A stretch of 64,000 nucleotides of DNA, taken from Halobacteriovorax marinus. Its GTDB lineage: Bacteria; Bdellovibrionota; Bacteriovoracia; Bacteriovoracales; Bacteriovoracaceae. The stretch lies in contig MAAO01000006.1 of assembly GCA_002163155.1 (NCBI GenBank), forward strand, positions 372,001 to 436,000, given 5' to 3'. A model generated the notes under the pieces. The model saw only the letters and a list, made by a program, of their open reading frames with translations. It was not told the origin of the DNA and did not search any database. The stretch's first letter is position 1. Every line of letters starts with the position of its first letter. This document shows positions 2,276-11,636 of this stretch, piece after piece. A program made the translations under genes and the position numbers.

Positions 2276-2304
2276 TTGACAAAAAAAATCATGAACTATA
2301 TTCT
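2276..2304 (+). promoter_or_regulatory. Sigma-70-type promoter of tRNA-Val
   Basis: TTGACA (2276-2281), a 17-bp A-rich spacer, then TATTCT (2299-2304) followed by a GC-rich discriminator AGGCCT. The tRNA begins 27 bases downstream of the -10 element. Consensus -35 and ideal spacing make this one of the clearest promoters in the window. Confidence 0.75.
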
Positions 2305-2330
2305 AGGCCTCCAAACAGCAAAACAGATCT

Positions 2331-2405
2331 GGGCGTGTAGCTCAGTGGGAGAGCGCTGCCCTTACAAGGCAGATGTCGCAGGTTCAATCCCTGCCACGCC
2401 CACCA
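2331..2405 (+). tRNA. tRNA-Val (anticodon UAC)
   Basis: Folds as a full 75-nt cloverleaf with encoded CCA. Acceptor GGGCGTG/CACGCCC, D stem GCTC/GAGC, anticodon stem CTGCC/GGCAG with loop CTTACAA (anticodon TAC), T stem GCAGG/CCTGC with loop TTCAATC. It has its own promoter and terminator and so is a monocistronic tRNA unit. Confidence 0.97.
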
Positions 2406-2417
2406 GATTTTTTATAT

Positions 2418-2450
2418 AAAAGCCCTTCTTTCGAGAAGGGCTTTTTTTTT
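2418..2450 (+). terminator. Rho-independent terminator after tRNA-Val
   Basis: Stem AAAAGCCCTTCT / AGAAGGGCTTTT (2418-2429 and 2434-2445) with a stable TTCG tetraloop and a run of nine T. About 200 bases of AT-rich sequence with no gene follow before cheA. Confidence 0.93.
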
Positions 2451-2653
2451 GTCTTTTTTGTTTCTCAAGTTTTCTTTAAGTTTACATTCAGGATAATTTT
2501 CAATAACCATTGTTTTATTGACACTAACTATCTGTTTTTACAGTCATAAAAATTTAATCTTAAGACTAAATTAGTCATTAATTATTCTTGGGAAATGTCG
2601 AAAAGTAATAGAATAGAAGAACATCGATGTTCAACTGAAGTGTGAGATTGTGA

Positions 2654-4819
2654 ATGGAAGATTTTGAAAAAGAGCTAAAAGAAGATTTTCTCGAAGAGTC
2701 TCTACAATTATTAGAGGATACCGAGCAATCTTTCTTGGCGCTAGAGAACGATAAAGAAAGTTCTGAGTTATTAGATCAAATTTTTCGACTTGCCCACAAC
2801 TTAAAGGGAACTTCTAGAGCTGTTGGCTTTGGGGAAGTTGCCGAGTTTACTCATGAGATGGAAAATCTCATTCTAAAAGTAAAAACAGGAGAACTTCCTG
2901 TCTCTGATGGCATTGTTTCGTTACTACTAGAATGCAATGATCACATCACTCATATGATTCAAACATTAAAAGACGACATGGCGGAAACATTTGAAAGTGA
3001 GGCCATAGTTGTAAAAATTCAGGGAGCTCTAGGTGGAGAGTTAAATGGAGATCAGTCGACTGCTGCAGTATCTGAAAGTGTAGAAGAAGTGCAGGAGGAT
3101 GTTCCTAGTGAAGAGGTTGTAGCTGAGTCTGGTGCTTGGGAAGATGATGACCAAGAAGCTATCGATGAAGATAGTCTCGTTGCTGGATTTGAGCAGGAGA
3201 TTATTGAAGAAAAAGAAGTGGTACAAGTAGACTCACCTGAAGTTTCTTCAGCTGAGCCTGAAATTTCTGCAGCAGCTCTCGAGGCCTTAAGAGAATTAGG
3301 CGGAGATCTGGATGAGAGTGTGTTAAATGAGCTGTCAGAAGGTGTTGTTAAAGAGGCCGAGGTAGAAGAAGAACCTGAAATTTCTGCAGCAGCAGTAGAA
3401 GCTCTAAAAGAGCTTGGAACTTGTGATGAAGGCTTAATTTCAGACCTCCAAAAAAATACTAAAAAAGAAGATTTAAAGTTTAACAATGTAGAAAAAAGGA
3501 ATGAGGAAAATGTCACGCCTATTCCTGTGGTTAGAGGAGATGGGTCGCCTGTTTCTGTTACTAAGGCCGCTCCAGCTCCCGTGGCTAAGAAGGCAGCAAC
3601 TAAAAAAACGGGTGAAGATGAAAGTATAAGAGTGTCCTTGGCAAGAGTTGAAAAATTAAACAATGTGGTAGGAGAATTAGTTATTCTTCAAACAGTTTTA
3701 GATCAACAAAGATTTTCATCAGTTCAGGATGACCTTACTAATAAATCAATTTCACAATTGGGTAAGCTCTCTAAAGAAATTCAAGAAATTTCAATGTCAC
3801 TTAGAATGGTTCCTGTAAAATCAACACTACAAAAAATGAGTAGGATTGTGAGAGATACTTCGAAGGCCCTTGATAAAGATGTAAAATTAACTCTATTTGG
3901 TGAAGAAACAGAAATTGATAAAACAGTACTAGAGCATTTATCAGATCCTCTCGTACATATCGTTAGAAATGCTGTTGATCATGGTTTAGAAAACACTGTA
4001 GATAGAGTAAAGGCTGGAAAGAGTGAAGTTGGTAATGTCACAATTCGTGCTCTTCATGAAGGAAATAATCTCGTTATAGAGATTTCTGATGATGGTGGAG
4101 GTATCCCCGCTGATATCATTAGAGGTAAGGCGATAGAGAAAGGAATACTGAATCCAAATGAACAAATCTCAGATGAAGAGGTTATACAACTTATTTTCCA
4201 TCCAGGGTTTTCAACTAAAGATCAAGTTACAGAAGTTTCTGGTCGCGGAGTTGGAATGGATGTCGTGAAAACCAATATTGAAAAACTCTCTGGTGAAGTT
4301 AAAGTTAAAACAGAAAGAGGCAAGGGAAGTGTGTTTAAAGTTGTCCTTCCTCTCACTATGGCCATTATTGATGGAATGGTGATTAGAGTAGGTGGAGAAA
4401 AATTCATTATCCCTCTAAATCAGGTCCATGAATCATTAAAGCCAAATGAGGAAATTGTTCATGAAGTTACAGGTTGGGGAAAATGTTTAAACTTAAGAGG
4501 ACAAGTTCTCCCTCTATTTAACATAGGATCAACGCTGTCTGTAAAAACTGATGAAGGGGTTGAAACAGATAAAATTGCCATAATTATACAATCTACAGAA
4601 ATTCCATTTGCTATTCTTGTTGATGATATTTTACATCAACAACAAGTAGTTATTAAGAATCTGGGGAATGAAATTAAAAATACAAAAGGTTTTATGGGAA
4701 GTTCAATTTTGGGAGATGGAAAACCATCTTTTATTTTAGACTTGAATGAGCTTTATAGTGGTAAAATGAAGAAGAGTAGTTCAAATATTAAAGATAATTT
4801 AATAGGTAGGGTAGCGTAA
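2654..4819 (+). CDS. cheA: Chemotaxis histidine kinase CheA
   Basis: CheA autophosphorylates and passes phosphate to CheY/CheB receivers in complex with CheW and MCPs. The 721 residues show an N-terminal HPt (P1) domain with phospho-acceptor H48 in LAHNLKGTSR. An acidic linker of about 200 residues (105-315) follows, where a P2 domain would sit; it holds two copies of EISAAALEALRELG-like sequence (about 202 and 242). Then come the P3 dimerisation region, a P4 kinase with N box HIVRNAVDHG (about 434-445), G1 DDGGGIP (about 479) and G2 GRGVGMDVV (about 530), and a C-terminal P5 CheW-like domain. The stop overlaps the cheW start by one base (TAATG), implying translational coupling. The role is certain; the linker is atypical. 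Confidence 0.96.
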   Translation: MEDFEKELKEDFLEESLQLLEDTEQSFLALENDKESSELLDQIFRLAHNLKGTSRAVGFGEVAEFTHEMENLILKVKTGELPVSDGIVSLLLECNDHITHMIQTLKDDMAETFESEAIVVKIQGALGGELNGDQSTAAVSESVEEVQEDVPSEEVVAESGAWEDDDQEAIDEDSLVAGFEQEIIEEKEVVQVDSPEVSSAEPEISAAALEALRELGGDLDESVLNELSEGVVKEAEVEEEPEISAAAVEALKELGTCDEGLISDLQKNTKKEDLKFNNVEKRNEENVTPIPVVRGDGSPVSVTKAAPAPVAKKAATKKTGEDESIRVSLARVEKLNNVVGELVILQTVLDQQRFSSVQDDLTNKSISQLGKLSKEIQEISMSLRMVPVKSTLQKMSRIVRDTSKALDKDVKLTLFGEETEIDKTVLEHLSDPLVHIVRNAVDHGLENTVDRVKAGKSEVGNVTIRALHEGNNLVIEISDDGGGIPADIIRGKAIEKGILNPNEQISDEEVIQLIFHPGFSTKDQVTEVSGRGVGMDVVKTNIEKLSGEVKVKTERGKGSVFKVVLPLTMAIIDGMVIRVGGEKFIIPLNQVHESLKPNEEIVHEVTGWGKCLNLRGQVLPLFNIGSTLSVKTDEGVETDKIAIIIQSTEIPFAILVDDILHQQQVVIKNLGNEIKNTKGFMGSSILGDGKPSFILDLNELYSGKMKKSSSNIKDNLIGRVA

Positions 4820-5325
4820 TGACTGATGAAAATAATAATCAAAATTTAGCAATTGTAGCTGACGAAAATTCTGAATTGCAAAGATTTCTTGAATTTAGTT
4901 TAGGTGAAGAAGATTATGCCATTCCATTACTCTCTGTTCGCGAAGTGATCTCTGTTCCTGAGACGACTCCGATTCCAAAAGCGCCAAGTCACTTCTTGGG
5001 AATCATGAATTTAAGGGGACAAGTTATATCTGTAGTGGATATGAGAACAAAGTTAAAAATAAAAGCTCTAGAAAACAATTCAGAAGAAAGTGTTATTATT
5101 GTAGATATTGATGGAATGAATTTAGGAATTGTTGTGGACTCTATTAATAAGGTTTTAGCTTTTTCTTTAAATGAAATAAATGATGTTCCAGAAATTGAAA
5201 CACAAGTTAATGCTGAATATATTTATGGTGTCTATAGAAAGGAAGACTCTTTAACAGTCCTCTTGAATGTAGCAAAAGTCTTAGATATTGCTGACGTCAA
5301 TACACTCAAGAAGAAAGCAGCTTGA
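4819..5325 (+). CDS. cheW: Chemotaxis adaptor CheW
   Basis: A 168-residue CheW-domain protein that couples CheA to methyl-accepting receptors. Typical features are EFSLGEEDYAIPLLSVREVI, the PKAPSHFLGIMNLRGQVI core and NLGIVVDSINKV. Its ATG overlaps the cheA stop codon (TAATG), so the two are co-translated. A terminator 30 bases downstream closes the cheA-cheW unit, separating it from the receptor and adaptation genes that follow. Confidence 0.95.
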   Translation: MTDENNNQNLAIVADENSELQRFLEFSLGEEDYAIPLLSVREVISVPETTPIPKAPSHFLGIMNLRGQVISVVDMRTKLKIKALENNSEESVIIVDIDGMNLGIVVDSINKVLAFSLNEINDVPEIETQVNAEYIYGVYRKEDSLTVLLNVAKVLDIADVNTLKKKAA

Positions 5326-5378: not shown

Positions 5379-5619
5379 GTAATCTATTAAGGTGCTCTAG
5401 GCGCAGTATGAACATTACGTAGATAATCATGCACATAATATTAAAATTTATTTACATTTCCTTGTAATCCTAAAACAATTATAAGTTACTATTTTTTAAA
5501 CGAATTATTCAAACTGGAATGATGGTAAATCTTTGTAAAATTAAGTGTTTATTGAGGTAAATATTCTAAATAAAACTGAAAATAATACCGAAGGTGTAGG
5601 TATAAAAAGGAGAATGAAT

Positions 5620-6066
5620 ATGAAGAAAATCGCGTTGCTCGCAATGAGCGTATGTTCACTAACAATGACTTCTTCCATGGCGGGAGATTGTTCAAAAGCA
5701 CAAGCAAAAGAGACTGTTGATAAGATGTGCGCAATCGTTACAGCCAAAGGTAAAGCTGGTCTTGGAGAGATTGCTAAATATCGTTATTGCGGATCCAATT
5801 ATGTTTGGATTCAAGATAAAGAGATTAAGATGGTTCTACATCCAATTAAGAGAAGACTGAAAGGAAAGGATCTTACAAAGAATGAAGACGAAAATGGTAA
5901 GAAGCTCTTTGTAGCATTTGAAAAAACAGCTAGAGGAACAAGTGGTGGTTGGGTTGACTACGTTTGGGCCAAGCCTGGAGCAGAGAAAGCCACTCCAAAA
6001 ATTTCTTACGTAAAAGTATGTGATGGTGGATTAGGCTGGATCGTTGGTTCTGGTATTTGGAAGTAG
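5620..6066 (+). CDS. Secreted stand-alone Cache-domain protein
   Basis: A 148-residue exported protein. It starts with a signal peptide (MKKIALLAMSVCSLTMTSSMAG) followed by a small Cache-like sensor fold. The tail with VLHPIKRRLKGKDL, FEKTARGTSGGWVDYVW, KISYVKV and GWIVGSGIW is the classic end of the single-Cache (sCache_2) ligand-binding domain found in MCPs and histidine kinases. There is no transmembrane helix after the signal peptide and no signalling domain, so it should be free in the periplasm. ATG 5620 is preferred because GGAG at 5609-5612 is 7 nt away; the ATG at 5614 is too close and the GTG at 5545 would bury the signal peptide. Four cysteines remain in the mature part. It lies 26 bases before an MCP, suggesting a periplasmic partner for that receptor. 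Confidence 0.75.
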   Translation: MKKIALLAMSVCSLTMTSSMAGDCSKAQAKETVDKMCAIVTAKGKAGLGEIAKYRYCGSNYVWIQDKEIKMVLHPIKRRLKGKDLTKNEDENGKKLFVAFEKTARGTSGGWVDYVWAKPGAEKATPKISYVKVCDGGLGWIVGSGIWK

Positions 6067-6092: not shown

Positions 6093-8342
6093 GTGAATAA
6101 AAATATTAAGCAGACTAGTTTTCAGTTTAAAATACTATTTGTCATCATTTCTGTGGCATTTGTGTGTATTACTCTTGTCGCAGGAGTGTCGTACTTTAAA
6201 TCTAGAGAGGCTCTTCAGCATCAATCAGTAAATCAGTTTTCGAGTATGGGCGAAATGATGAAAAATCGTCTTTCGGCATTTCAATCCCAAACGAGGACAT
6301 TTGCTACGAGACTTGGAAAAGATCGTTTGATTGAAGGACTATTTCTAGCTTATGAAGGAGCATTCTTCGGAGCTAGTTTATTTCCAGGTGAAGATATTAA
6401 TATTTACACTACTCACTATCAAAACTTAGAGTCTATTTATGGGAAGCGAACTGAAAAAATGGCTAAGGATTTTTCCTTAAGCGATGTTTTTCTCGTTTCC
6501 CTAGACTCTCAAGTCTTAATGACTGCAAGGCCTGATAAGAATAATTTCTTCCTTGGAAGAAACTTATTAAATGGCGTCTATAAGAAGTCTCTTTTAACTA
6601 AGTGTTTCAACTCTGCTCTCACTGATACTAAAGGGGAGTTATTCTTTAGTGGCTATGAGTATAATGAAGTTAGTAAGAAGCCAGAGGCTTATTACTGTGT
6701 AAAGCAATTTGCAGAGTTTGATCACTTATCAGAAGGCATTAAAAAGGGTGAAGACATGGGAATTGTCATCACTAGAATTAATATTGATCAATTAAATAGT
6801 ATGGTTACGCAAAGAGAGGGAATGGGAGAAACTGGTCAAGCCTATATTGTTGGTGGTGATCATCTTCTGAGGACCGATTTCTTTGTGAATAAAGAAGAAT
6901 TTAATACTATAAATTCCTTAAAAACGAAAAAGAAACTTATAACGAAATCAATTGATTTTGCTCTTGAGAAGAAATCAGGAACACATTTTATAATAGATCC
7001 AAATGGCGAAGAGGTTTTAAGTTACTATTCTCCAATTACTATGTTTGGTCATACTTGGGCCTTAGTAGCTGAAATTCAGACTACAGAAATGTTCGCACCA
7101 GTACGATCCATGATGATTTTTGTCTCCATGTTAGCCGGAGTAGCATTACTGATTATTGTATTTGCAGGAATGTTTATAACCAAGAAATTAGTTCAACCTA
7201 TTACTGATGCTAATAATATTTTAGGAAGTGTCGCTAATGAAGTGACAGATAACGCTGATAAAATGAAATCAAACTCAGAGGGACTAAGTGATGGAGCAAC
7301 TCAAATTGCTGCTGCTATTCAAGAAACTGTAACAACCTTGGATGAACTGTCTTCTATGGTAAATAAAAACCTTGAGAACGTTGAGCTTTCAAGTCAGAAA
7401 TCAGAAGAGTCAAAAGAAGTCGCCGAAAGAGGAAAAATTGCTGTTACTAGTATGATTGGAGCCATGGGAGAAATTAATACTTCGAATGGTGAAATTGTAG
7501 ATGAAATGAATAACATTAGTAATAAAATGAATGAAATTATTGATGTCATTAATGAAATTGGAACCAAAACTAATATAATCAACGATATTGTTTTTCAAAC
7601 AAAATTACTCTCATTTAACGCTTCAGTTGAAGCTGCGAGAGCAGGGGAACACGGTAAAGGTTTTGCTGTCGTTGCTGAAGAAGTCGGTTCTCTTGCAACT
7701 GCTAGTGGAAAAGCTGCTACTGAGATTAGTGAGATGCTTGATGAAAGTGTTAAAAAAGTGGAATCCATTGTATCTGACACGAAAGTTAAGATAGATACTC
7801 TATCTACAGTCGGACAGGAAAAAGTTTCAGTGGGAACAAAAACAGCTCACGAGTGTGAAGAGGTTTTAGACCAAATACTTGTTAATGTTGTAGAGGTTAA
7901 TGAAAAAGTCTCTGAAATTACAAATGCTTCAAACGAACAGGCGACTGGAATTAAAGAAGTTTCCAAGGCCATGAGTCAGTTAGACGAAATGACACATAAT
8001 ACTTCAACTATATCTGCAGAAGCACTTAACTCTTCAGAGGTCTTAAATTCTGAGGCGACTAAACTATCAGAGGTCGTTGAGAACTTAAATATCTTAGTCC
8101 GAGGTGGCGTTGCTCAAAATATGAATGACCTTCATGAGATTAAGGTAGATGTTTCTTCAAAGGTTGACCGAGACCTTGAGTCAAAGAAAAAAAAGAAGCA
8201 GAAGAAGAAGGCTACACCAACCAAAATTAAACTAGTTGATACAACTGAATCTTCCTCAGGTAAGAATGTTGCAACTAAGAAGGCTTCAGGCTCTGGAATT
8301 GTTGTTCCAAATCGTGATGATGATCGCTTTGAAGATATCTAA
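6093..8342 (+). CDS. Methyl-accepting chemotaxis protein, large periplasmic sensor
   Basis: A 749-residue chemoreceptor. TM1 is at about 13-35, then a large periplasmic double-Cache-type region (about 40-335), TM2 at about 340-365, and a cytoplasmic helical signalling domain. The conserved hairpin tip reads NDIVFQTKLLSFNASVEAAR and GKGFAVVAEEVGSLA (about residues 490-530). The segment after TM2 is short and shows no clear HAMP. The C-terminus is a basic Lys-rich tail (KKKKKQKKK) rather than a CheR/CheB-docking pentapeptide. Start is GTG at 6093; an ATG in frame is not close by. It is followed 22 bases later by the CheR fusion, so receptor and methyltransferase are probably co-expressed. Confidence 0.92.
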   Translation: MNKNIKQTSFQFKILFVIISVAFVCITLVAGVSYFKSREALQHQSVNQFSSMGEMMKNRLSAFQSQTRTFATRLGKDRLIEGLFLAYEGAFFGASLFPGEDINIYTTHYQNLESIYGKRTEKMAKDFSLSDVFLVSLDSQVLMTARPDKNNFFLGRNLLNGVYKKSLLTKCFNSALTDTKGELFFSGYEYNEVSKKPEAYYCVKQFAEFDHLSEGIKKGEDMGIVITRINIDQLNSMVTQREGMGETGQAYIVGGDHLLRTDFFVNKEEFNTINSLKTKKKLITKSIDFALEKKSGTHFIIDPNGEEVLSYYSPITMFGHTWALVAEIQTTEMFAPVRSMMIFVSMLAGVALLIIVFAGMFITKKLVQPITDANNILGSVANEVTDNADKMKSNSEGLSDGATQIAAAIQETVTTLDELSSMVNKNLENVELSSQKSEESKEVAERGKIAVTSMIGAMGEINTSNGEIVDEMNNISNKMNEIIDVINEIGTKTNIINDIVFQTKLLSFNASVEAARAGEHGKGFAVVAEEVGSLATASGKAATEISEMLDESVKKVESIVSDTKVKIDTLSTVGQEKVSVGTKTAHECEEVLDQILVNVVEVNEKVSEITNASNEQATGIKEVSKAMSQLDEMTHNTSTISAEALNSSEVLNSEATKLSEVVENLNILVRGGVAQNMNDLHEIKVDVSSKVDRDLESKKKKKQKKKATPTKIKLVDTTESSSGKNVATKKASGSGIVVPNRDDDRFEDI

Positions 8343-8364: not shown

Positions 8365-10221
8365 ATGGGCGTTGCAAAATTAGATGAAGATTCTTATTTA
8401 AAAGTTGTTGAGAAAGTTAGTAAAATTGTTGCTAAAATTTCTGGTAATGTTCTTGGTGAAAAACAAGTTCTAATGGTTCAAACTCGCATAAAGAAGAGAA
8501 TGAGCGAACTTGGAATTAAGACTCCCGATGAGTATATAGGGTTTATAGATATGCACCGAGAACAAGAATCAAATGTTCTCGTTTCTCTTTTAACAACTCA
8601 TCACACTTTCTTCTTTAGAGAGTTTACTCACTTTGAACATTTAAAAGAAAACCTTCCGCGTATTATTTCAGATGTTAAAGCAAGAGGAGGGAATACAGTC
8701 TCTATTTGGTCTGCAGCCTGTAGTCGTGGACAAGAGGTTTATTCTCTTTCTATGTTTTTGAATTTCTACCTTCCAAAAATTGATCCTTCGATGAAATTTG
8801 AAATTCTTGGAAGTGACATCGATCCTGAATCTGTAAAAATTGCTAAAAATGGCGTTTATCATAGAAGAGAAATTAAATCTGTTCCAATGAATTACCTCGC
8901 TGATAACTGGGCCAGAGGAACTGCTGAAATTTCAGACTACGTAAAAGCTAAGAAATCGATAAAGGAGAATTGTTCCTTTGATGTTTATAATCTCTTAGAG
9001 TTTCAAAATCATATGGGAAGTAAGAAATTTGATGTTATCTTTTGCCGAAATGTATTTATTTATTTTGAGAGCTATCAGATTGAAGACATTACAAAGAACT
9101 TCTTTAAGCATCTGCATAAGACAGGAATGTTATATTCAGGGATATCTGAATCTCTTTCAGGGTTAAAGCTAGATTTAGAAAATGTTGGACCATCGGTATA
9201 TGCTCATAAAGTTGAAGTTGAAGTTGAAAAAGTTGTTGAAAAAGCTAAAACGCCAGTTGTTCCTGTTCTTGCTAAGCCGATTACCCCAGCTATGCCTGCT
9301 AAGTTAAGAGTTTTCTGTGTTGATGATTCATCAAGTATTTTGACTTTATTAAAGAAAGTTTTCAGTGAAGATGATCAGTTTGAAGTCGTAGGAACTGCAG
9401 TAAATGGTATAGATGCAAAAGAGCAGCTCAAAAACCTTAAGGGTAAAGTAGACGTTTTAACTTTAGATATACACATGCCAGAGATGGATGGAGTCACTTA
9501 TTTAGAAACATATCATAATGATGAACACCCTCCAGTTGTCGTGATTTCTTCTGCATCTAGAGATGATTCTGAAGCTGCAATGAAATGTATTAGAGCTGGT
9601 GCCGCTGACTTTATCGAGAAGCCCGCTTTAAATAACTTGATGGAGCGCGGAGAGGAAATAAAAACCAAGCTAAGAGTTGCCTATATCGATAAGAATATTG
9701 TTCACAAGCATGTAACATCCATAGATAAGGCATTTGAAAAAGAAATTGTTATTGAGCAACCTGAAAGTAAGTTTAAAATTATCGTTTCTTCTTTGAGTGA
9801 TCAAAAGAAAGTTGTGAAATTCTTTCACGAATTACATGGTAAACAACCTCCTACACTGATGTTGTTTGAAGGGCAGGATAATCTCTTGCTTGCTATTCAA
9901 GATGAGTTGGCCGATAAGATTAGATATCCGGTTGAAATTGTCGATTCTGTCGATAAGAAATTTGAAACTGGAATTGTTTATCTTGCCGACTTTAAGAAAG
10001 TTTTTAAAGAAGCGCATAAACATCATCACGATTCAAAGACTTCAGTTATGGTTTTTGGTCAGTGTTCAAAGCACGGTGGCGATCAATTGCTAGAGTGGGG
10101 AGAAGCTCAGTTATTACTGGAAGATGTGGGGGTAAATTCTTCACTCTGTGAAGTCGCAACTGATATTGTTCCAACAACTAGTTTTGCATATATGTCTTCA
10201 GAGTTTTTAAGTAGGAAGTAA
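8365..10221 (+). CDS. cheR: CheR methyltransferase fused to a receiver and a degenerate CheB-like domain
   Basis: The first ~290 residues are a CheR MCP glutamate methyltransferase: helical N-domain, then the SAM fold with SIWSAACSRGQEVYSLSM, EILGSDIDPESV and VIFCRNVFIYF. After a Glu/Lys/Pro linker, a CheY-type receiver starts at about 314 (VFCVDDSS, phospho-acceptor D368 in LDIHMPEMDG, Lys in IEKPA). The last ~150 residues (468-618) read like CheB methylesterase but are broken: KIIVSSLSDQKKVVKFFHEL aligns with the GSSTGGT region, and the catalytic His position is Glu. ATG 8365 is chosen over GTG 8362 because AAGGAAG (8352-8358) is 6 nt away. The stop overlaps the next gene by one base (TAATG). 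Confidence 0.9.
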   Translation: MGVAKLDEDSYLKVVEKVSKIVAKISGNVLGEKQVLMVQTRIKKRMSELGIKTPDEYIGFIDMHREQESNVLVSLLTTHHTFFFREFTHFEHLKENLPRIISDVKARGGNTVSIWSAACSRGQEVYSLSMFLNFYLPKIDPSMKFEILGSDIDPESVKIAKNGVYHRREIKSVPMNYLADNWARGTAEISDYVKAKKSIKENCSFDVYNLLEFQNHMGSKKFDVIFCRNVFIYFESYQIEDITKNFFKHLHKTGMLYSGISESLSGLKLDLENVGPSVYAHKVEVEVEKVVEKAKTPVVPVLAKPITPAMPAKLRVFCVDDSSSILTLLKKVFSEDDQFEVVGTAVNGIDAKEQLKNLKGKVDVLTLDIHMPEMDGVTYLETYHNDEHPPVVVISSASRDDSEAAMKCIRAGAADFIEKPALNNLMERGEEIKTKLRVAYIDKNIVHKHVTSIDKAFEKEIVIEQPESKFKIIVSSLSDQKKVVKFFHELHGKQPPTLMLFEGQDNLLLAIQDELADKIRYPVEIVDSVDKKFETGIVYLADFKKVFKEAHKHHHDSKTSVMVFGQCSKHGGDQLLEWGEAQLLLEDVGVNSSLCEVATDIVPTTSFAYMSSEFLSRK

Positions 10222-11636
10222 TGGCAAAAATAAAATTCTTTAGTGGGAAAATTCAAGAAGAGTATTATTTCAAAGTTGGAAATGAATGTTTTATATCTAT
10301 TCAAGATAAGAGTGGGCACTCCTGTGCAACTTTAATGAACTCAATAGATCTTAAAACGGGGAAACTTAATGTTTTTCTTAAAAATGCAGCTTCAGAATTA
10401 AAAACAACACTAAGCCATCTCACTTTAAAAGTTATCGGAGCCGTTAGTTTCATTAATACAATTAAAGAGATCGTAAGGGATGTGAAATTTCTGGATAATA
10501 AATATGTCGAAAGGCATGGAATGTTTGAAATTCTCTACTTGCCAAATGATGGTGTTCTCAGAGTTTCGAAAATTTCCAAAGATGAGGAAAAGAAAAGTGG
10601 TGAAGTGAAGGTTTTAATAGTAGATGACTCTAAGACTATTCGTTCATTACTCACAAAAGTTCTTTCTAGTTCTAGTCGAATAAACGTTGTGGCCACGGCT
10701 GAAAAGCCTAGCGAAGTTGCAGCTCTTATTGAAAAATTTAGACCCGATGTCATAACATTAGATATTCATATGCCTGAAATGAATGGTGTTGAATTACTAA
10801 AACTAATCCAACCTAAATATAACCTTCCTACTATTATGATCACCTCTGTTAGCCTTGAAGAGGGACCGCTTGTTCTTGAAGCTCTTGAAAGTGGTGCATT
10901 TGATTATATCCAAAAGCCTAGTATGGAGGAGCTTTCTGAGGTAGCCCCTATATTGATTGAGAAAGTTCTAGAGGCCTCTAAGTTTGAATGCGCAAAGAGT
11001 ATAGGAACGAAGAGTGTAAGTAGATCAAGTCATAATTTTAATGAAGATTGCATGGTCGTTATAGGTTCTTCTACTGGAGGAACAAATGCCCTAAAAGATA
11101 TTCTCTGTGGATTGCCAAGAGTCATTCCTCCAATTCTCATCGTGCAGCACATTCCTGCTGTCTTCTCTAAGGCCTTTGCTGAGCGACTCGATGGACTTTG
11201 CCCTTTTAGTGTAAAGGAGGCGGAACACGGTGAAGAAGTTTGCGCTAATACTGTTTATATAGCTCCTGGTGGGCAACAAATGAAAATTTTCGTAAAGGGT
11301 TCAAAGAAGTTTATAGAAATTAATGACGACAAGCCTGTGAATAGATTTAAGCCATCGGTTGATTATATGTTTAAATCAATTGAAGCTTTAACGAGTAAAG
11401 AAAGTATAATAGGGGTTATCCTTACTGGTATGGGAAGGGATGGAGCAAGTGGTATTACTAACCTTAAAAAGCTAGGTGCTCTCACTATTGCCCAAAACGA
11501 AGAAAGTTGCGTCGTATTTGGAATGCCCAGAGAGGCGATTGCCATGGGGGGAGCGACAGAAGTTGTTCATAAGGACCAGATCGCTGAAAAAATGGTAGAA
11601 CTTTCATCTCGATTTCAGAAAATGAAAGTCAGTTAG
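10221..11636 (+). CDS. cheB: CheB protein-glutamate methylesterase with N-terminal CheD-like extension
   Basis: CheB removes receptor methyl groups for adaptation. The receiver begins at about 130 (VLIVDDSKTIRSLL; phospho-Asp near 180 in LDIHMPEMNG). The methylesterase domain has the triad Ser in IGSSTGGT (about 283), His in QHIP 26 residues later, and Asp in LTGMGRDG (about 407). Residues 1-115 are extra. They resemble a CheD deamidase in outline: VGNECFISIQDKSGHSCATL is like the CheD GSCV...G..H..LP block, and KVIGAVSF and NKYVERHGM also match. The usual His appears as Cys. It is coupled to the CheR fusion by TAATG. CheB identity is certain; the CheD relation is an inference. Confidence 0.93.
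   Translation: MAKIKFFSGKIQEEYYFKVGNECFISIQDKSGHSCATLMNSIDLKTGKLNVFLKNAASELKTTLSHLTLKVIGAVSFINTIKEIVRDVKFLDNKYVERHGMFEILYLPNDGVLRVSKISKDEEKKSGEVKVLIVDDSKTIRSLLTKVLSSSSRINVVATAEKPSEVAALIEKFRPDVITLDIHMPEMNGVELLKLIQPKYNLPTIMITSVSLEEGPLVLEALESGAFDYIQKPSMEELSEVAPILIEKVLEASKFECAKSIGTKSVSRSSHNFNEDCMVVIGSSTGGTNALKDILCGLPRVIPPILIVQHIPAVFSKAFAERLDGLCPFSVKEAEHGEEVCANTVYIAPGGQQMKIFVKGSKKFIEINDDKPVNRFKPSVDYMFKSIEALTSKESIIGVILTGMGRDGASGITNLKKLGALTIAQNEESCVVFGMPREAIAMGGATEVVHKDQIAEKMVELSSRFQKMKVS

Follow-up and report, generated by a model that had tools for sequence, protein, structure and literature searches.

The chemotaxis operon described here, which lies in a 64-kb stretch of Halobacteriovorax marinus DNA (hereafter the window), encodes two multidomain proteins from adjacent genes: a CheR methyltransferase followed by a receiver (REC1) and a dead CheB, and a dead CheD followed by a receiver (REC2) and CheB. 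The second protein is a mirror image of the first, with a dead CheD beside a working CheB. The CheR-REC-pseudoCheB architecture occurs across the Bdellovibrionota.

Operon context and the CheR and receiver domains

The ORF list and Pfam matches of the window place the CheR-REC-pseudoCheB gene inside the operon, all genes being read from the forward strand. Domain searches identified cheA (2654..4819, +), cheW (4819..5325, +) and the operon chemoreceptor, a dCache-MCP (6093..8342, +), and these are followed by the CheR-REC-pseudoCheB gene (8365..10221, +), which specifies 618 aa from the ATG at 8365 and has an alternative start, GTG 8362, three bases upstream. The partner gene, pseudoCheD-REC-CheB, comes next (10221..11636, +; 471 aa). 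Between cheW and the MCP gene is a gene for a lone single-Cache protein (5545-6066); it has a signal-peptide-like start, is found also in locus L099, and may work with the receptor as a periplasmic sensor.

The preliminary description of this region had reported a normal CheR and an intact receiver with D368, and both are borne out. The CheR domain occupies residues 16-280 (8410..9204, +), with PF01739 matching residues 80-275 at 8e-46, and carries the SAM-binding and catalytic motifs expected of the family. Among 61 relatives, each position of the FFRE motif is retained in 60-61, while both Asp of GSDID are invariant, as is most of FCRN..IYF. REC1 (residues 315-426; 9307..9642, +) is matched by PF00072 over residues 316-426 at 7e-21, and D321, the phosphoacceptor D368 and S396 are identical in 61/61 relatives. 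It is a receiver of the CheB type, since the NCBIfam CheB model covers residues 313-447 of the fused protein (E 1e-29). Judged by residue conservation, both the CheR and the REC1 halves are intact, or 'alive'.

Compared with CheR of Salmonella (PF01739; 1af7/1bc5), the domain is alike in its catalytic and SAM-binding motifs and in a β-subdomain that aligns without gaps to this pentapeptide-binding enzyme, and differs in the REC-pseudoCheB that follows it at the C-terminal side; a gap appears when the same subdomain is aligned to Pseudomonas CheR1. CheR of E. coli binds an NWETF pentapeptide. In the operon studied here the MCP ends in RFEDI (8325..8339, +), a candidate CheR/CheB tether, and an RFED[ILV] ending is found in 1 of the 10 MCPs of the genome, namely the operon's own. 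The operon MCPs of the group share a conserved C-terminal D-x-R-F-E-D-[ILV], in some cases in variant form. The MCP of a second operon of this genome (C9), which encodes an intact CheR-REC-CheB fusion, ends in DEWEKI, and the remaining MCPs of the genome end otherwise. The endings -RFEDI and -DEWEKI (L173, L176), in which the last residue is non-aromatic, are candidate system-specific tether peptides. Both pentapeptide-dependent and pentapeptide-independent kinds of CheR have been described (PMC7698151). From the tail and the β-subdomain sequences we infer that CheR of this operon may be tethered through the -RFEDI tail of the receptor.

The C-terminal domain and the CheB active site

Sequence families name nothing in the remainder of the protein. 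Residues 427-618 have no match in Pfam or NCBIfam, the window protein is not matched by PF01339 (CheB), and this model matches 2 of 43 relatives of the domain at E values up to 1 (best 5.9e-5). A profile search of PDB sequences reached CheB only at E 0.4, yet in the right register, and the identification therefore rests on hhalign and on the fold. When 22 tail sequences were compared by hhalign with 23 intact CheB domains taken from related genomes, the match had a probability of 84.5 (E 7e-6), and with 43 tail relatives it was 94.4 (E 8.6e-8); the control comparison of the tail profile with CheD gave 0.1. An AlphaFold2 model of residues 445-618, made from an alignment of 43 sequences, had a pLDDT of 90.4, and in a Foldseek search with it ranks 1-8 were all CheB (e.g., 3sft at E 1.9e-6 and 1chd at E 9.3e-6). 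Superposition with VIA-align gave Z scores of 16.5, 15.9, 15.5 and 15.4 for the CheB structures 6ymz, 1chd, 1a2o and 3sft, against 10.6 for the next fold, and the match spans the CheB catalytic domain from its first to its last part. Conservation of the domain in many genera argues against a chance resemblance. The domain was delimited by hhalign, the AlphaFold2 fold and the alignment of relatives to residues 464-618 (9754..10218, +), and on the evidence of these models it is nearly certain that they have the fold of the CheB catalytic domain and are a catalytically dead copy of it. The preliminary description had followed the CheB fold over about residues 468-618, and had proposed structure prediction with superposition on CheB and a profile-profile comparison as checks; the hhalign and structure comparisons made here agree with it, CheB being the strongest match and the triad missing.

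CheB methylesterases are recognized by a Ser-His-Asp triad (S164, H190 and D286), and the domain does not have it. S476, L477 and E502 were placed by the hhalign register and the GMGxDG loop by the order of strands in the AlphaFold2 model. The GSSTGG motif of CheB corresponds to S475-S476-L477-S478-D479 in the window protein, with S476 (9790..9792, +) at the position of Ser164. A serine at this position is not conserved, since the relatives vary (19 S, 10 G, 4 N, 3 T, 3 P and others among the 43), although the window protein itself has one. L477 lies at the position of Thr165, where 1/43 relatives has Thr, and E502 (9868..9870, +) at that of His190, where Glu (36/43) or Asp (4/43) is found in 40/43. 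The segment G565-QCS-K569 (10057..10071, +) replaces the GMGxDG loop and does not include the catalytic Asp, which is absent from this final loop in all 43 relatives. A hairpin segment of CheB is also deleted. The residue readings given earlier (loss of GG, His to Glu, and replacement of the GMGRDG Asp) hold, with the nuance that S476 is still a serine. Set beside the CheB methylesterase (PF01339; Salmonella CheB, 1a2o), the REC1-pseudoCheB part has the same receiver-linker-CheB order, the same fold (Z 15.5) and a conserved phosphoacceptor; it differs in lying behind a CheR, in lacking the triad and the hairpin, and in having no Pfam match for the dead domain of the window protein.

These losses bear on the proposal, made in the preliminary description, that the dead CheB binds the methylation helices of receptors and so blocks the active CheB. 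The entire CheB fold is retained, and CheR tethering at the receptor would bring the dead domain near the substrate. However, the active-site and substrate-binding loops are rewritten as much as the triad is, and together with the deleted hairpin this makes substrate binding by the dead domain doubtful; a role as competitor appears quite unlikely.

Other residues of the domain are near-invariant: E502, D542, G565, E586, D587, D600, P603, T605, S606 and F607. The last of them form a D600-x-x-P603-x-T605-S606-F607 motif (10162..10185, +), and this D..P.TSF end is retained in most shortened versions of the pseudo-CheB. It could be imagined that the former active-site crater (E502, D542, E586-D587, D600, P603 and T605-S606-F607) has been rebuilt for a ligand, a metal ion or a basic residue of a partner, giving a new activity or a sensing function, because these residues are near-invariant whereas the triad is not. 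According to DSSP of the model, most of the conserved polar residues follow the C-termini of strands, which is the edge at which the CheB active site lies. Against this, an enrichment near strand C-ends of all top conserved residues is not significant (9/26, p 0.45), and PP, G565 and P603 look inherited from CheB, so that a new site of this kind is an unlikely explanation.

Partner protein, distribution and origin

The partner begins with a pseudo-CheD domain (residues 1-128; 10221..10604, +), continues with REC2 (residues 131-238; 10611..10934, +) and ends with an intact CheB methylesterase domain (11055..11591, +; PF01339 at 3e-61) in which GSSTGG, QHIP and GMGRDG are all present. Residues 1-128 have no family match in Pfam or NCBIfam. 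Their hhalign comparison with CheD gave a probability of 54.7, and the control with CheB 0.5; the AlphaFold2 model had a pLDDT of 92.3; its sole Foldseek match under 0.001 was the CheD structure 2f9z_C (E 2.9e-4); and 2f9z_C was also the best match in VIA-align (Z 9.7), followed by NTAN1/YfiH, of the same superfold, at 8.0-8.5. The domain does not have the catalytic Cys and His by which a CheD deamidase is recognized: the Cys is present just in the window protein and its nearest relatives, and the GGxxH His loop falls in a gap. Fold and profile together indicate that it is a degenerate CheD. Elsewhere in the class, CheD-REC-CheB fusions occur in which CheD is intact and the LRVSK junction is the same (L084, L088, L090, L092 and L093). 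The partner thus resembles CheD (PF03975; Thermotoga 2f9z) and these fusions in fold (Z 9.7), in the place of the domain before REC-CheB and in the junction, and is unlike them in that the catalytic Cys is not conserved, the His loop is absent and Pfam does not match it.

Relatives of the fused protein were found in 59/129 genomes of the class at 1e-40 and in 146/369 genomes of the phylum at 1e-45, and both counts take in matches to plain CheR and to CheR-REC-CheB. When 84,980 species were scanned for the dead-tail pattern, 50 loci were returned, the patterns being strict enough that absence elsewhere is not implied. The names attached to these loci are Bacteriovoracaceae, Halobacteriovoraceae, Bdellovibrionales and Oligoflexia, besides a handful of MAGs whose names are vague. 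The survey of related genomes suggested in the preliminary description has therefore recovered the same architecture, conserved in many genera of the phylum. In three loci (L056 4219-6042, L077 1892-3752 and L147 3311-5118) CheA is divided between two successive ORFs, one for the N-terminal part and one for the rest, from either a split gene or a frameshift.

Thirteen loci encode CheR-REC-CheB proteins with intact catalytic motifs (L058-L067 and L165-L167); they share the architecture and the place in the operon with the dead-tail proteins and differ in that the motifs are intact. One is in the present genome (L063, 5626-7509, -, on G000:C9), in a separate operon that has no separate CheB. No second CheB occurs in the gene cluster of 12 of the 13, the exception being L166. 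The L166 cluster (2276-4204 and 315-2276) has two different CheB-containing proteins and a 643-aa ORF that matches both CheA and CheW. Since relatives with an intact triad exist, the dead domain is a CheB that was inactivated in a CheR-REC-CheB fusion formerly active in both ways. The dead-tail proteins cluster together on trees of CheR or of CheR and REC, with moderate support (76), which falls short of showing that they are monophyletic. A CheB-derived domain that lacks the triad is the derived state, so the simplest history is that a CheR-CheB with both activities lost the triad after another methylesterase had become its neighbour. The association of a dead CheB with a partner, and of a live CheB with none, represents about one evolutionary transition and so is not independent statistical evidence.

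The partner gene lies directly after the dead-tail gene in 69 loci (among them L159, which is masked over its tail). Dead-tail genes without an adjacent partner are L033/L074, L110 and L134, and some others stop at a contig end. Two of these, L074 (6941-8863, the same as L033) and L134 (7648-9648), are orphans that lie outside any chemotaxis operon, and the genome of L074 holds an intact fusion (L058) in another operon.

Gene fusions, selection and possible roles

In the three least diverged pairs, dN/dS of the dead domain was 0.017-0.077 at dS values of 0.4-2.1, the larger of which are partly saturated. Purifying selection in pairs of low divergence indicates that the domain is not a decaying relic. 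A functionless leftover of the bifunctional fusion might be suspected from the loss of the domain in one clade, its shortening in others, and its rate of change, dN over 333 pairs being 1.8x that of CheR (the linker reaching 3.7x). With dN/dS of about 0.02-0.08 and near-invariant motifs across many genera of the phylum, this is very improbable. The domain is homologous to an enzyme, has lost the catalytic residues and is kept by selection, as a pseudoenzyme would be. Since selection keeps them, the dead parts of both proteins probably regulate or assemble the pair.

Assembly could be the main role, with the pseudo-CheB and pseudo-CheD docking the CheR and CheB proteins into a stoichiometric complex and phosphorylation control being secondary. 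The genes adjoin in nearly every locus, intact CheR-REC-CheB operons are generally without a second CheB, and in 12 loci the two genes are fused into one protein. Five of these fusions are long (1048-1179 aa), with both dead domains retained and a linker of at least 314 aa; seven are short (800-838 aa), with both dead domains gone and a linker of 35-69 aa; and none of the 12 retains just one. The long fusions originated at least twice. The short ones are CheR-REC-REC-CheB proteins from one family of the phylum (L149, L150, L151, L154, L157, L158 and L168) and fall in one clade with tail-less CheR-REC proteins. Their joint loss of both domains was considered as strong evidence for docking and was discounted, since a single deletion suffices and all cases are of one clade; the short fusions imply that the dead domains are dispensable once CheR and CheB are covalently joined, and mutual binding does not follow. 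Loci L160 and L161, in which the pseudo-CheB is shrunken and the partner lacks the pseudo-CheD, count against docking, as do the loci noted above where a pseudo-CheB is present without an adjacent partner. Divergence of the pseudo-CheB, with the common trend removed, gave partial r values of 0.70 with REC1, 0.68 with REC2 of the partner, 0.52 with CheR and -0.09 with the pseudo-CheD; these distance correlations are exploratory and easily confounded by shared ancestry, and the pseudo-CheD is near saturation. The negative value for the two dead domains lowers the standing of the docking explanation, which we regard as possible but somewhat doubtful, while the value for REC2 is compatible with the two proteins touching each other.

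In a clade with 99% SH-aLRT the dead domains are gone but REC1 is kept, either as CheR-REC-REC-CheB or as CheR-REC alone, which indicates that REC1 can serve without the pseudo-CheB and counts against the clamp described below. The same observation might be taken to mean that REC1, which is intact and retained where the pseudo-CheB is lost, acts as a sink that drains phosphate from CheA and that the pseudo-CheB is merely a structural cap. Such a role would leave the conservation of the pseudo-CheB motifs unexplained and is considered very unlikely.

The receiver of an ordinary CheB rests against the catalytic domain until it is phosphorylated by CheA, and is then released. Textbook adaptation has a constitutive, unregulated CheR, and only CheB answers to CheA. 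The REC-pseudoCheB half may keep the phospho-switch of CheB minus the catalysis, and could then act as a phosphorylation-controlled regulatory clamp on the CheR domain, through which the activity of CheA would tune methylation of the receptor in addition to its demethylation. The -RFEDI tail would hold CheR at the receptor of the operon, and the CheR protein and its pseudoCheD-REC-CheB partner would form one adaptation unit, with the partner supplying the active methylesterase. We put this clamp forward tentatively, at a little under an even chance. That phosphorylation of the receiver might control methylation had been suggested in the preliminary description; the idea is plausible in the light of the sequence comparisons, as all 61 relatives keep the phosphoacceptor Asp and the pseudo-CheB tracks its own REC most closely. 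A more elaborate possibility, about which we are decidedly more reserved, is a reciprocal pair of half-dead proteins, CheR-REC-dead CheB and REC-CheB-dead CheD, in which one CheA charges both receivers, the dead domains serve for allosteric docking, and the former CheB crater has been rebuilt as a conserved acidic site. If true, both methylation and demethylation would be under phosphorylation control in one complex, unlike the constitutive CheR of the textbook.

CheR and CheB are also joined in the CheB-CheR hybrid proteins that carry PAS or kinase domains. Like the fused protein of the window these combine the two in one polypeptide; they differ in their order, which here is CheR-REC-CheB, and here the CheB is dead and no kinase is joined. 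No description of a CheR-REC-CheB fusion or of a dead CheB was found in the open literature, and the nearest published analogues found are the CheR-TPR proteins. FrzF and WspC are such fusions, and in FrzF the added domain reportedly limits methylation (PMC3447774). They share with the present protein a CheR and a non-catalytic C-terminal domain, which in their case consists of TPR repeats and in the present case of a phosphorylatable receiver and a dead CheB.

The presence of a CheR with a whole, phosphorylatable dead CheB in a main chemotaxis operon of many predators suggests that methylation itself can be under feedback. The loci form an evolutionary series, from an intact fusion to a dead one accompanied by an active enzyme in another protein, to shortened forms, and to direct re-fusion without the dead domains. 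Thanks to this series, the role of the pseudoenzyme can be tested by deleting domains in predators that grow in culture, such as Bacteriovorax and Halobacteriovorax.
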